Part shown: positions 5,265-64,000 of the stretch, piece after piece
Layout: each line of letters begins with the position of its first letter
How positions within the stretch are numbered: position 1 is the first letter of the stretch
Origin: Burkholderiales bacterium PBB6
GTDB lineage: Bacteria > Pseudomonadota > Gammaproteobacteria > Burkholderiales > Burkholderiaceae_C
Assembly (NCBI GenBank): GCA_002255925.1
Contig: NKIH01000001.1
Location: forward strand, 496,001 to 560,000
DNA: 64,000 nt
Direction of reading: 5' to 3'
The notes under the pieces: generated by a model
Seen by the model: the letters and a program-made list of their open reading frames with translations, nothing else
Told to the model about the DNA's origin: nothing
Database searches by the model: none
Position numbers and translations under genes: made by a program

Positions 5265-7133
5265 ATGACCGATTGCCCGCTTCTGGAAGCCCCGCTCGTG
5301 CCCAGCGCCTTCAACTTCGCCTTGTCGCCTTTTGATTGCCTGAGCAGCGACGAGCGCCAGGCCGTGCGTGACCACGTCGACATCGCCTACCTGCGCGCCG
5401 GTGACGTGGCGCTGGAGCCGGGCGTGGAGCCGGCCTGCCTGTTCGTCATCATCAAGGGCCATGTCGACCAGCTTGACGGCGACCAGGTGGTGGCCAGCTA
5501 CGGCCCGGACGACAGCTTCGACGGCCGCGCGCTGGTGGCTGGTCAGGCGGCCAGCCGGTTTGTCGCCACCGAAGAGGTGCTGGCCTACCAGCTGGCCCGC
5601 AGCACCGTGATGGCCTTGATCGCCAGCAACGCGACGTTTGGCGCGCTGCTGTTTGCGGATCTGTCGAACAAGCTCGGTGCGCTGGCCCGGCGCGGCAGCC
5701 AGCACGAGCTGCAATCGCTGGCGCTGGCCCGCGTGGCCGAGGCCAGCGTGCGGCCGGTGCACACGGTGCCGGCAGACACCGACATCGTCAGCGTGGTGCG
5801 CCTGTTCAGCGCCCAGCGCACCGACCATGTGCTGGTGCATGACGCCCGCAGCCAGCCGCCGCGGCTGGGCATCTTCACCACCACCGGTCTGCAGCGCGCC
5901 ATCCTGGCCGGACGGCCGCTCGACACCCTGCCGGTGGGTGAGCTCGCCTCGTTCACGCTGGTGCGCGTGCGGCCCGATGCCTACTTGTTTGATGCCCAGG
6001 CCATGATGATCCGCCACACGGTGCGCCGGGTGGTGGTGGCCGAGCCCGATGGGGCGGGCGGTGAACGCATCCTCGGCACGCTTGATCAGCTGGATTTGCT
6101 GAGCTTCCTGTCGAACCACTCGTACCTGATCACCCGGCAGATCATGGAGGCCACCGACCTGGCTGCGCTGGCCGTGGCCGCGGGCCAGGTGCAGCACCTG
6201 ATCGGCCTGCTGCACCGGGGCGGCACCCCCGTGCGGCTCATCGCGCGGCTGGTGCAGGAACTCAACGCCTTGCTGTTCGACGCCGCCTGGCGGCAGATCG
6301 CGCCGCCCGCGCTGGTGGCCAACAGCTGCCTGTTCGTGATGGGCAGCGAAGGCCGGGGCGAGCAGTTGCTGCGCACCGACCAGGACAACGGCCTGGTGCT
6401 GCGCGATGGCTACGAGCCACCGGCGGATCTGGCGGAGATCTGCGAACGGTTTTCCAAGGTGCTCGCCGAGTTCGGTTACCCCGAATGCCCGGGCCGCATC
6501 ATGCTCAGCAACCCGGCTTGGCGGCATGGCGCCACCGTGTTTGCACAGACCGTGCGCCGCTGGCTGTTTGCGCCCGATGCCGAGAGCCTGATGGCGCTGG
6601 CCATCTTCATCGACGCGCATGCCGTGAGTGGCGATGGCAGCTTGCTGGAAGGCCTGCGGCAGGAGCTGTTCCAGAGCGTGCTGGACAACGACGCGATGAT
6701 GGCCCGCTTCGCCTCGGCCATCGACGCCTTTGATGCCGGCCAGGGCTGGTGGATGCGCTGGCTGACGCTGGGCGACGGCGAGGAGCGGCTCGACATCAAG
6801 AAGGCCGGCCTCTTTCCGTTGGTGCACGGGGTGCGCAGCCTGGCGCTGGCCCACCGCATCACGGCCACCGGCACGGTGGCGCGCATCGAAGCGCTGGCGG
6901 CTGACCAGCGCCTGCCGCCGGATTTGGCCACCGCTCTCATCGACAGCCTGCATTTCTTCATGGGCCTGCGGCTGAAGGCCGGGCTGGAAGCGCTGGACAG
7001 CGGGCAACCGTATTCGGGCATCAGCGTGTCGCGGCTTTCCAGCCTTGATCGCGACTTGCTGAAGGACACGCTCGGCGTGGTCAAGCGCTTCCGCACGATG
7101 CTGGGCCAGCGCTTCCGGCTGGACATGCTGTGA
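5265..7133 (+). CDS. cyclic-nucleotide-binding/CBS/DUF294 nucleotidyltransferase-like protein
   Basis: A 622-residue multi-domain protein. Residues about 20-130 resemble a cyclic-nucleotide-binding fold (VALEPGVEPACLFVIIKGHV). Residues about 150-275 are a CBS pair. Around residue 360 the DUF294 nucleotidyltransferase motif GSEGRGEQLLRTDQDN appears, followed by the DUF294 C-terminal helical domain. This layout is that of a GlnD-like nucleotidyltransferase controlled by a bound nucleotide; the target protein is not known. I use the ATG at 5265 because the frame upstream to 5214 has no family character. The stop overlaps the GTG of the next gene (GTGA), so the two are translationally coupled; a DEDDh exonuclease beside this family is a common arrangement. 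Confidence 0.82.
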   Translation: MTDCPLLEAPLVPSAFNFALSPFDCLSSDERQAVRDHVDIAYLRAGDVALEPGVEPACLFVIIKGHVDQLDGDQVVASYGPDDSFDGRALVAGQAASRFVATEEVLAYQLARSTVMALIASNATFGALLFADLSNKLGALARRGSQHELQSLALARVAEASVRPVHTVPADTDIVSVVRLFSAQRTDHVLVHDARSQPPRLGIFTTTGLQRAILAGRPLDTLPVGELASFTLVRVRPDAYLFDAQAMMIRHTVRRVVVAEPDGAGGERILGTLDQLDLLSFLSNHSYLITRQIMEATDLAALAVAAGQVQHLIGLLHRGGTPVRLIARLVQELNALLFDAAWRQIAPPALVANSCLFVMGSEGRGEQLLRTDQDNGLVLRDGYEPPADLAEICERFSKVLAEFGYPECPGRIMLSNPAWRHGATVFAQTVRRWLFAPDAESLMALAIFIDAHAVSGDGSLLEGLRQELFQSVLDNDAMMARFASAIDAFDAGQGWWMRWLTLGDGEERLDIKKAGLFPLVHGVRSLALAHRITATGTVARIEALAADQRLPPDLATALIDSLHFFMGLRLKAGLEALDSGQPYSGISVSRLSSLDRDLLKDTLGVVKRFRTMLGQRFRLDML

Positions 7134-61581: not shown

Positions 61582-61657
61582 GGCCTGGTAGCTCAGTTGG
61601 TAGAGCAGCGGATTGAAAATCCGCGTGTCGGTGGTTCGATTCCGCCCCAGGCCACCA
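61582..61657 (+). tRNA. tRNA-Phe (anticodon GAA)
   Basis: A 76-base cloverleaf: acceptor GGCCTGG pairs with CCAGGCC, D-arm GCTC/GAGC, anticodon arm GCGGA/TCCGC with anticodon GAA at 61615-61617, T-arm GGTGG/CCGCC with loop TTCGATT, and the 3' ACCA encoded. Canonical for phenylalanine. Confidence 0.97.
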
Positions 61658-61981: not shown

Positions 61982-62260
61982 ATGTCGATTCAATCTGCTT
62001 CCGCTTTCCTGCTGGCTGCCAGCGCACTGGCCCTGGCCACCGCTGCTGGCGCTGTCGAAGCCCCGAAGGGCTCGTCGGGCAAGGCCGTCGGCGCTGCTGA
62101 CACCGTGCATTGCTACAACGTCCACGACTGCAAGGGCAACAGCGACTGCAAGACCGCCGAGCACGCCTGCAAGGGCCAGAACGCCTGCAAGGGCCACGGC
62201 TTCAAGGCTGTTACCGCCAAGGCCTGCTTCGACCAGAAGGGCACCATCGGCGATCTGTGA
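61982..62260 (+). CDS. bufA: small exported six-cysteine peptide, bufferin-like (BufA2 type)
   Basis: A 92-residue precursor. It has a Sec signal peptide ([20 protein letters not shown], cleavage near residue 24, AGA-VEA). The mature part has six cysteines at 44, 50, 56, 63, 69 and 82, four of them in a CKG/CKT repeat ([25 protein letters not shown]). This spaced-Cys, Lys/Gly repeat is that of the bufferin-type precursors whose cysteines are turned into copper-binding thiooxazole groups by an MNIO enzyme. The gene directly precedes the MNIO-DUF2063 ORF. The ATG at 61982 is preceded by CGGAGATT; longer in-frame starts add only a non-signal extension. Copper binding is inference from the family. 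Confidence 0.83.
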
Positions 62261-62276
62261 TGTGCTGATGCTTCCA

Positions 62277-62306
62277 GGCCTCCCGCACCTTCGGGAGGCC
62301 CGTTTT
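62277..62306 (+). terminator. hairpin between the peptide and maturase genes
   Basis: GGCCTCCCG and CGGGAGGCC form a perfect 9-bp stem with a CACCTT loop, followed by CGTTTTCC. It lies 16 bases after the peptide stop and 15 bases before the maturase ATG, so it is a partial terminator or attenuator inside the operon. Confidence 0.6.
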
Positions 62307-62321
62307 CCTTGAAAGCCCGTC

Positions 62322-64000
62322 ATGCAGCCACTTCCGCTGGCCCCCGGCCCCCACCGCGTTTCGCCAGGTTTTGGTCTGGGCCTTCGCACGCCCCATTACG
62401 CTGACTTTCTGGCGGGCCGCCAAGCGGTGGACTGGCTGGAAGTCATCACCGACAACTTTCTGGTGGACGGCGGCAAGCCGCTTGTCATGCTGGACACCTT
62501 CCGGCGCGACTACCCCATCGCCCTGCACGGCGTGGCCATGTCACTGGGCTCAGCTGATGGCGTGGACACGGCCTATCTGCGGCGCGTGAAGCAACTCGCT
62601 GATCGCATCGACGCGATGTGGGTGTCCGACCACCTCTGCTGGACCGGCCCGCTCGGCCAGCCCCTGCATGATCTTTACCCGCTGCCCTACACCGAAGAGT
62701 GCGCCCGGCTGCTGGTGAACAACATCCGCCAGGCGCAAGACGCGCTGGGCCGCCGCCTGGTGCTGGAGAACGTGTCGAGCTACGTGCGCTTCAGCGCCTC
62801 GGGTGTCAGTGAATGGGACTTCCTGGCGCACCTGGCCGTTGAGGCCGATTGCGAGCTGCTGGTGGACGTCAACAACATCTACGTCAGCAGCGTCAACCAC
62901 GGCTTCGACCCTGTTGAATACCTGCGCGCGCTGCCTGCCCAGCGGGTGCGGCAGATTCACCTCGCAGGCCATTCGCGCAGCGGCGATTTCATCATCGACA
63001 CCCACGACCACCCGGTGTGCCCGGAGGTGTGGGCGCTCTATGCCCAGGCGTGTGTGCTCTACGGCCCGACGGCCACCATGATCGAGCGCGACGACCACAT
63101 CCCGCCGTTGCCTGAACTGCTGGCCGAGCTGCAGCACGCGCGCGATGTGGCCGATGCGCACGGCGCCGTGAATGCCGCGCCTGGTCAAGCCCGCGGGCCT
63201 GCATTGCGATTCCCGCCGGCGGCTGCATCGGCCAATCCGCTGGCGCTGGGGCCAACCCAGCAACTGATGGCCGGCTTGGTGCTGGGCCCGCAACCCGACC
63301 ACGTGCCCGCCGCGCTGGACGCACCCGGCCCCCTGCCTGCGCTGCGTGGCCTGGAGATTTATCACAACGCCTACCGCAGCCGCTTGGTGGAGGTGCTGGC
63401 CGACCACTACGCCAAGACCCTGCTCTACACCGGCAGCGACACCTTTGACGAACTGGCGCGCGACTACGTTGAGCGGCACGCGCCCCAAGGCCATCACCTG
63501 GGCCGCTATGGCGACCAATTTGCCGCGCACCTGGCGCAGGCCTACCCCAGCTACCCCGCGCTGCATGAGCTGGCCGAACTGGAGTGGGCCTTGCGCGCCG
63601 TGTTCGACGCAGCCGACCAGCCGGCGTGGGACTTGGCACGGGTGCAGCGCATGGGCGCCGACGCCTGCCTGACCCAATGGCCGGTGCTGCACTCAACCGT
63701 GCGCTTCCGCACCCAACGCACCAACGCGATCGCCATCTGGAAGGCCATTGCCGACGATGTGGACGTGCCCGAGGCGCACCTGCGCGATCAGCCCACCACC
63801 GTGATCGTCTGGCGCTGGGGCCTGCAGCCGCATTTCAGTGGCCTGGACGCGGACGAAGCTGAGTTCCTGCAGGCCTTGGCTGCGCCCGAGCGCAGCATTG
63901 CCGACGTCGCTGAAACACAGATGGCCAACCAGCGGCTCAGTGACCCGGCGAAGCTGGGGCAGTGGCTGCATCGGTGGTGGGAGCAGGAGTTGTTGCGGGC
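62322..64000 (+). CDS. bufB: MNIO (DUF692) enzyme fused to a DUF2063 domain, C-terminally cut by the window
   Basis: The frame is open for 559 codons from the ATG at 62322 to the window end without a stop. Residues about 15-275 are the DUF692/MNIO domain: [25 protein letters not shown] (His69), WVSDHLCW (His104), LVLENVSSY (Glu149), [16 protein letters not shown] (Asp182, His193), IHLAGHS (His213, His217), THDHP (His228, His230) and [10 protein letters not shown] (Glu255), the His/Asp/Glu set that binds two or three irons in MNIO enzymes. After a Pro/Ala linker (about 276-305) residues 306-559 match DUF2063 (BufC): [32 protein letters not shown] and [21 protein letters not shown]. In known buf operons these are two proteins. 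Here one chain would bind the precursor and modify its cysteines. Confidence 0.9.

Follow-up and report, generated by a model that had tools for sequence, protein, structure and literature searches.

A bufferin precursor gene followed by a fused bufB–bufC gene

The DNA that we analyzed (the window) is a stretch of 64,000 nt from Burkholderiales bacterium PBB6 (GCA_002255925.1, contig NKIH01000001.1, 496,001–560,000 of the forward strand). Near its end, a gene for a small cysteine-containing peptide is followed by one long gene encoding both an MNIO enzyme and its partner protein. The features of this locus, in window coordinates, are:

61582-61657: tRNA-Phe gene, upstream of bufA2
61982..62260, + strand: bufA2, exported six-Cys bufferin precursor (ORF list and NCBIfam NF050166)
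62277..62300, + strand: GC-rich hairpin with a T-rich tail in the bufA2/bufBC gap, a possible attenuator or mRNA stabiliser (scan for terminator-like sites)
62322..64000, + strand: bufBC fusion gene, 560 aa, with its TGA beyond the window at 64002-64004 (ORF and genome continuation, L003 6322-8004)
62370..63152, + strand: MNIO / BufB domain, residues 17-277 (Pfam PF05114, NCBIfam NF050167, Foldseek)
63153..63257, + strand: Ala/Pro-rich linker, residues 278-312 (composition, and model confidence of 61-69 over residues 281-310)
63258..63533, + strand: DUF2063 domain that opens the PME1 partner, residues 313-404 (Pfam PF09836)
63702..63983, + strand: RRE-like winged helix, residues about 461-554 (AlphaFold2 models and fold matches of the C-terminal half)

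Continuity, domains and predicted folds of the fused chain

The ORF (62322–63998) is open to the window edge, which falls four bases before the bufBC stop codon ends; the continuation of the genome closes the frame at the TGA at 64002–64004, giving a chain of 560 residues with a computed mass of ~62 kDa. An earlier note on this DNA had described a single ORF with no stop or frameshift between its halves and a Pro/Ala-rich linker joining them. Both descriptions hold: the linker occupies residues 278–312, and the frame is unbroken here and in the 40 named fused loci introduced below. No break between the halves was found in an independent assembly, and other genomes carry the same join. In 41 fusion sequences the linker is 29–60 residues long, contains 23% Ala and 14% Pro and is always in frame, although its sequence is not conserved. 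Because the frame is kept while the linker drifts, the downstream half must be needed; an advantage of joining does not follow from the frame alone.

A Pfam and NCBIfam profile search on the completed ORF placed both domains in one chain: MbnB_TglH_ChrH (PF05114) at residues 17–277 (E 2.2e-104) and DUF2063 (PF09836) at 313–404 (E 2.5e-15; 57 bits against a cut-off of 27.2), the latter within the 306–559 segment in which the earlier note had placed it. The MNIO half also passes the curated model NF050167 (MNIO_BufB; 361 bits, cut-off 310). The whole chain falls below the curated cut-off for HvfB (250 vs 360 bits), and the C-terminal half falls below that for HvfC (31.5 vs 142 bits). The HvfC shortfall we count against the bufferin-system explanation developed below, together with the result that no NCBIfam BufC model matched the C-terminal half.

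For the whole chain (38 fusion sequences), AlphaFold2 gave a pLDDT of 89.9 and a pTM of 0.85; confidence was low for the N-terminus and the linker. The C-terminal half by itself reached a pLDDT of 93.9 (47 sequences, fused and split). The N-terminal half matches the folds of 3bww (Foldseek TMt 0.87), TglH and MbnB. When solved structures were searched by sequence, the C-terminal half gave chance matches only, so we compared its model by fold: just three matches to solved structures had E ≤0.001, namely NGO1945 (3dee; E 2e-5, prob 1.00) and TglI (8hci_A and 8hi7_A), and MbnC was matched only at E 6.3. After the DUF2063 domain, the model has an RRE-like domain in the order strand-helix-strand-strand-three helices; this part is assigned by fold because Pfam NGO1945_C gave no match at E up to 1. 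The earlier reading of MNIO followed by DUF2063 thus stands, with both domains above their Pfam cut-offs, but it fell short for the C-terminal half, whose predicted structure is that of an entire PME-type-1 partner, with an RRE-like winged helix in addition to DUF2063. That a maturase and a recognition protein share one chain here, instead of being encoded by separate genes, is a point on which the curated models and the fold tests agree.

H69, H104, E149, D182, H213 and E255, which we take to be metal-site residues of the MNIO half, are invariant in 38/38 aligned fusions. N184, D226 and H228 are likewise invariant (12/12 and 38/38) and correspond, when aligned via 3bww, to HvfB N175, D242 and H244. 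Substitution of any of these three in HvfB is reported to abolish activity (PMC13419390).

The bufA2 precursor and the intergenic hairpin

The bufA2 product scores 99.7 bits against NF050166 (Cu_RiPP_BufA2, NCBIfam; cut-off 60), in line with the earlier suggestion that a six-cysteine bufferin-type peptide precedes the fused gene. The peptide has a signal-peptide-like N-terminus (a hydrophobic stretch, by inspection), then a part with DCKT and, further on, ACF. The four inner cysteines lie in CK(G/T) contexts and the first and last do not; these two may pair like the outer cysteines of Buf1 bufferins, which are reported to do so (PMC12452194). Exactly six cysteines are found in 43/43 aligned precursors from distinct fused BufA2 loci. 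With ten copies of fused loci among the split-labelled rows of the alignment disregarded, the first Cys reads HCYN in the precursors of the 42-member fused clade described below and mostly HCYG in the nearest split rows; L099, which is split yet has HCYN, is the exception.

The region scanned contains three terminator-like sites against a mean of 2.3 in shuffled sequences, which is not significant alone. A strong GC-rich hairpin in the gap between precursor and enzyme genes occurs at 22/43 fused BufA2 loci, 14/35 other BufA2 loci and 2/36 BufA1 loci, counts that were controlled with mononucleotide shuffles and come from rows that are not independent. The hairpins keep their position from locus to locus and differ in sequence. 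We rejected the hairpin as a hallmark of fusions, since split BufA2 loci carry it too; it may have a role in holding precursor above enzyme levels.

Surroundings of the locus and a second operon in the same genome

On the upstream side of bufA2, a response regulator gene precedes the tRNA-Phe gene. Downstream, hipA and a small hipB-like HTH gene lie on the minus strand (L003 8016–9715, corresponding to window coordinates 64016–65715) and converge on bufBC. A promoter scan gave a single site, 5′ of the tRNA gene, and none from there to bufA2. When three flanking proteins were searched in 58 loci, the only good match was a HipA relative (43%) near the fusion in L057 (at 5453–6658), along with a weak NtrY-like match in L055. 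The window’s genome has the same genus code as G076, whose locus belongs to Ideonella paludis; neither the response regulator nor the tRNA-Phe gene was found in the 3–4 kb of flank examined in the congener.

The earlier note had suggested looking downstream for a DoxX/BufD gene and an ECF sigma gene, and neither was found as far as L003 position 15000 (ORFs ≥90 aa; phmmer with the genome’s own DoxX and ECF proteins). A missing ECF gene is expected, since no sigma-factor genes are reported for the Buf2 type (PMC12452194). DoxX is described as core to bufferin clusters (PMC12452194); its absence makes bufA2–bufBC a two-gene unit and is counted against the bufferin-system explanation, as is the finding of no metal-related neighbour or copper regulator in L003.

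Elsewhere in the same genome (L004 7923–11244, G000:C26), a second bufferin operon has bufA1 (DUF2282), MNIO, DUF2063 and DoxX as separate genes, along with a divergent sigma-70-family gene; the products of all five exceed Pfam cut-offs. With its separate DUF2063 protein, a partner could act in trans, a further point counted against the bufferin-system explanation; the operon also offers a natural internal control for the fusion.

Distribution of the fusion

MNIO matches were found in 188 of 299 genomes from the family, and at least 12 of these genomes, from 11 genera and including the window’s own, encode a full-length, uninterrupted fusion of the window’s type. BufA2 lies directly upstream in 12/12 of these family fusions, and a separate BufC was detected downstream in 0/12 within the stretch examined. 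Two peptide patterns taken from the C-terminal half of the fusion, scanned against the contigs of 84,980 species, gave 53 named loci. Of these, 40 are fused and 11 are split Buf2 operons; L070 is a fused fragment whose partner half contains a stop, and in L102 no MNIO was detected. Such a query favours fusions, so 40/53 is not a frequency. BufA2 is again upstream in 40/40 of the named fused loci. Ten of these are copies of family genomes, leaving 42 distinct Buf2-type fusions. Fusion genera include Ideonella, Aquabacterium, Hydrogenophaga, Undibacterium, Acidovorax, Limnohabitans, Curvibacter, Rhodoferax, Hylemonella, Inhella and Chitinimonas.

Among 299 genomes from across the phylum, 97 had a match, and among the matches listed the full-length uninterrupted form was found only in the window’s own genome. 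On plasmids, 353 of 72,556 records matched, all at <60% identity, and the best 15 of the 353 were all in two pieces. In viral contigs, 49 stretches fit the pattern and none encodes the C-terminal half.

Other fusions and the number of origins

Fusions of the same layout exist outside the window’s clade. The family search gave examples in G121 and G098 (with BufA1) and in G049 (with an HvfA-like precursor). Using one Buf1-type and one Hvf-type fusion as queries, we also searched 321 genomes that span the class; the 19 regions taken from the matches listed, which include split controls and one already known locus, add at least five fused genomes: G514, G440 and G552 (BufA1 upstream), G389 (BufA2) and G544 (L174), which is Hvf-type by its place in the tree and has no detected precursor. 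In all eight chains both MNIO and DUF2063 exceed their Pfam cut-offs, narrowly so in G544 (27.6 vs 27.2). The G049 chain (L048 2866–4812) passes both curated Hvf models (HvfB 387 vs 360 bits, HvfC 182 vs 142 bits), and just upstream of it lies an HvfA-like precursor in which the motifs AQGKCG and AGQCG occur. By these sequence models L048 is a natural HvfB–HvfC fusion; L174 is probably a natural counterpart of HvfBC as well.

Of the 155 distinct MNIO ORFs in the scanned loci, 51 are fused, 96 are split and 8 have no detected partner. The MNIO tree holds 153 of them; the partial L070 and one partial L040 row were dropped and the eight partnerless ORFs counted as split. All 42 Buf2 fusions form one clade (SH-aLRT 99) with no split row inside, among BufA2-linked enzymes. 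The fused/split label needs eight changes, five of them forced by starred branches; since the tree is unrooted, these changes are gains or losses. In the partner-domain tree (145 rows, the eight partnerless ones dropped), the same 42/42 group together (SH-aLRT 100), the label changes seven times, and the split rows that lie closest to the window have a BufA2 link.

AU tests on 79 rows, with groupings chosen after the first tree, rejected a single origin for all fusions (p 2e-7), one origin for the five Buf1 fusions (p 4e-9) and an origin shared by Buf2 and Hvf fusions (p 2e-11). Also rejected were L046 and L047 placed with the Buf2 fusions (p 0.0006) or with L126 and L169 (p 0.005). The tests did not reject L046 with L047 (0.295), L170 with the Buf2 fusions (0.07), L048 with L174 (0.6) or L115 with L126 and L169 (0.168). 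From these trees, which were quick and in which several fused rows are long branches, the fusion appears to have arisen more than once, in the Buf2, Buf1 and Hvf types, and we use four origins as a working minimum.

Proposed function and alternatives

We think it likely that bufA2 and bufBC together make up a bufferin (captophorin) system reduced to two genes, in which bufBC would be a single-chain synthase that installs thiooxazoles on a peptide buffering copper in the periplasm. By analogy with bufferins (PMC12452194) and other PME1-dependent MNIOs (PMC13097082), the RRE/DUF2063 half would recognize the BufA2 precursor before export, presumably through the signal-peptide region. The MNIO half would then use a mixed-valent diiron site to convert the cysteines of the Cys-Lys-(Gly/Thr) motifs to 5-thiooxazoles, and the mature peptide would be exported by Sec and buffer copper in the periplasm. 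Throughout, the flexible linker would keep the partner permanently attached to the MNIO half.

What joining might contribute is suggested by work on HvfBC (PMC13419390, a July 2026 preprint). There, the bound partner is reported to be needed for the active mixed-valent Fe(II)/Fe(III) state; enzyme and partner bind weakly, and a fusion engineered to study the cofactor made markedly more product than the co-expressed pair. This result and the partner-dependent cofactor make a functional gain from natural fusion plausible. Tentatively, and with rather less than even confidence, we suggest that natural captophorin synthases made as one chain represent an enzyme architecture in its own right. It would have evolved four times or more (Buf2, Buf1, Hvf) because the attached partner holds the diiron site mixed-valent, the partner being a cis-acting activation domain and the hairpin balancing precursor output.

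A serious rival to any such benefit is a neutral join: a small mutation would have connected overlapping or in-frame bufB and bufC, and the join would persist, with no gain over a two-protein complex, because the downstream half would have lost its own start. The bufB and bufC ORFs overlap by four bases in 12/27 split BufA2-linked rows, and in L187 (G886) and L188 (G436) they share a frame with a single TAA between them, possibly a step before fusion; from either arrangement, one small change would give a joined chain. Once the BufC start is lost, a ratchet of this kind would retain the frame without any benefit. However, the more than one origin across Buf2, Buf1 and Hvf suggests at least no cost, the 42-member clade holds no split row, and the engineered HvfBC fusion is reported to out-yield the separate pair (PMC13419390). 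We regard the neutral account as a real contender, though it would not be our first expectation.

It is improbable that the one ORF yields two proteins, with BufC freed by internal initiation or by cleavage of the linker. In favour of this, the linker is Ala/Pro rich, flexible and modelled poorly, and Met316, at the start of the partner half, is the sole Met between residues 271 and 361; but its column has no majority residue in the consensus of 38 fusions, and the linker sequence is unconserved, so no shared cleavage motif is apparent.

We are similarly doubtful that the fused enzyme makes a different modification or serves another precursor, with BufA2 a mere neighbour. MNIOs catalyse many reactions, and we know of no characterised product for the window’s fusion clade. 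Yet BufA2 is directly upstream at every family and named fused locus, the MNIO half falls among BufA2-linked enzymes, and PME1-dependent MNIOs have been suggested to make thiooxazoles broadly (PMC13097082).

Finally, the idea that faulty assembly or sequencing erased a stop can be dismissed: two split relatives do have a genuine in-frame stop between the halves and L070 has one inside its partner half, but the join is repeated in 42 distinct copies from the 12 family genomes and 40 named loci, including the two-contig genome G298.

Comparison with known systems

The closest relatives of the one-chain bufferin synthase that we favour are the bufferin operons themselves (bufA-bufB-bufC-doxX, Buf1 and Buf2), with which the locus shares the BufA2 family, a BufB equivalog MNIO, a DUF2063-plus-RRE partner and the order A-B-C. 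In those operons B and C are separate and doxX is frequent, whereas here B and C are one chain and there is no doxX. Fusions of bufferin domains and an MNIO–nitroreductase fusion have been described (PMC12452194), and we saw no MNIO–DUF2063 fusion among those given there; nor did we find a report of a natural one in the open-access literature searched.

The engineered HvfBC fusion (PMC13419390) likewise has MNIO then PME1 partner in one chain and in the same order, but it is man-made, lacks a linker and is of the Hvf type, while bufBC is natural, has a linker and is of the Buf2 type. MovX (MNIO plus a C-terminal RRE) and ChrH (MNIO plus an extra C-terminal domain, thought to be a fusion; PMC12636315) are also natural MNIOs with an accessory domain in the chain; both are named as exceptions to the partner rule in PMC13419390, where DUF2063 is not described for them, and their substrates and products differ from those proposed for bufBC. 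MbnBC and TglHI share the MNIO fold (MbnB, TglH) and the partner fold (TglI) but, unlike bufBC, are two-chain complexes that act on other precursors.

Natural joins supply ready one-chain enzymes for structural work, spectroscopy and biocatalysis, and they raise a testable question, namely whether the partner does no more than dock the substrate or exerts control over the iron cofactor. By its precursor, enzyme and partner the bufBC locus is a bufferin system, and by its one-chain architecture it is a variant of one.
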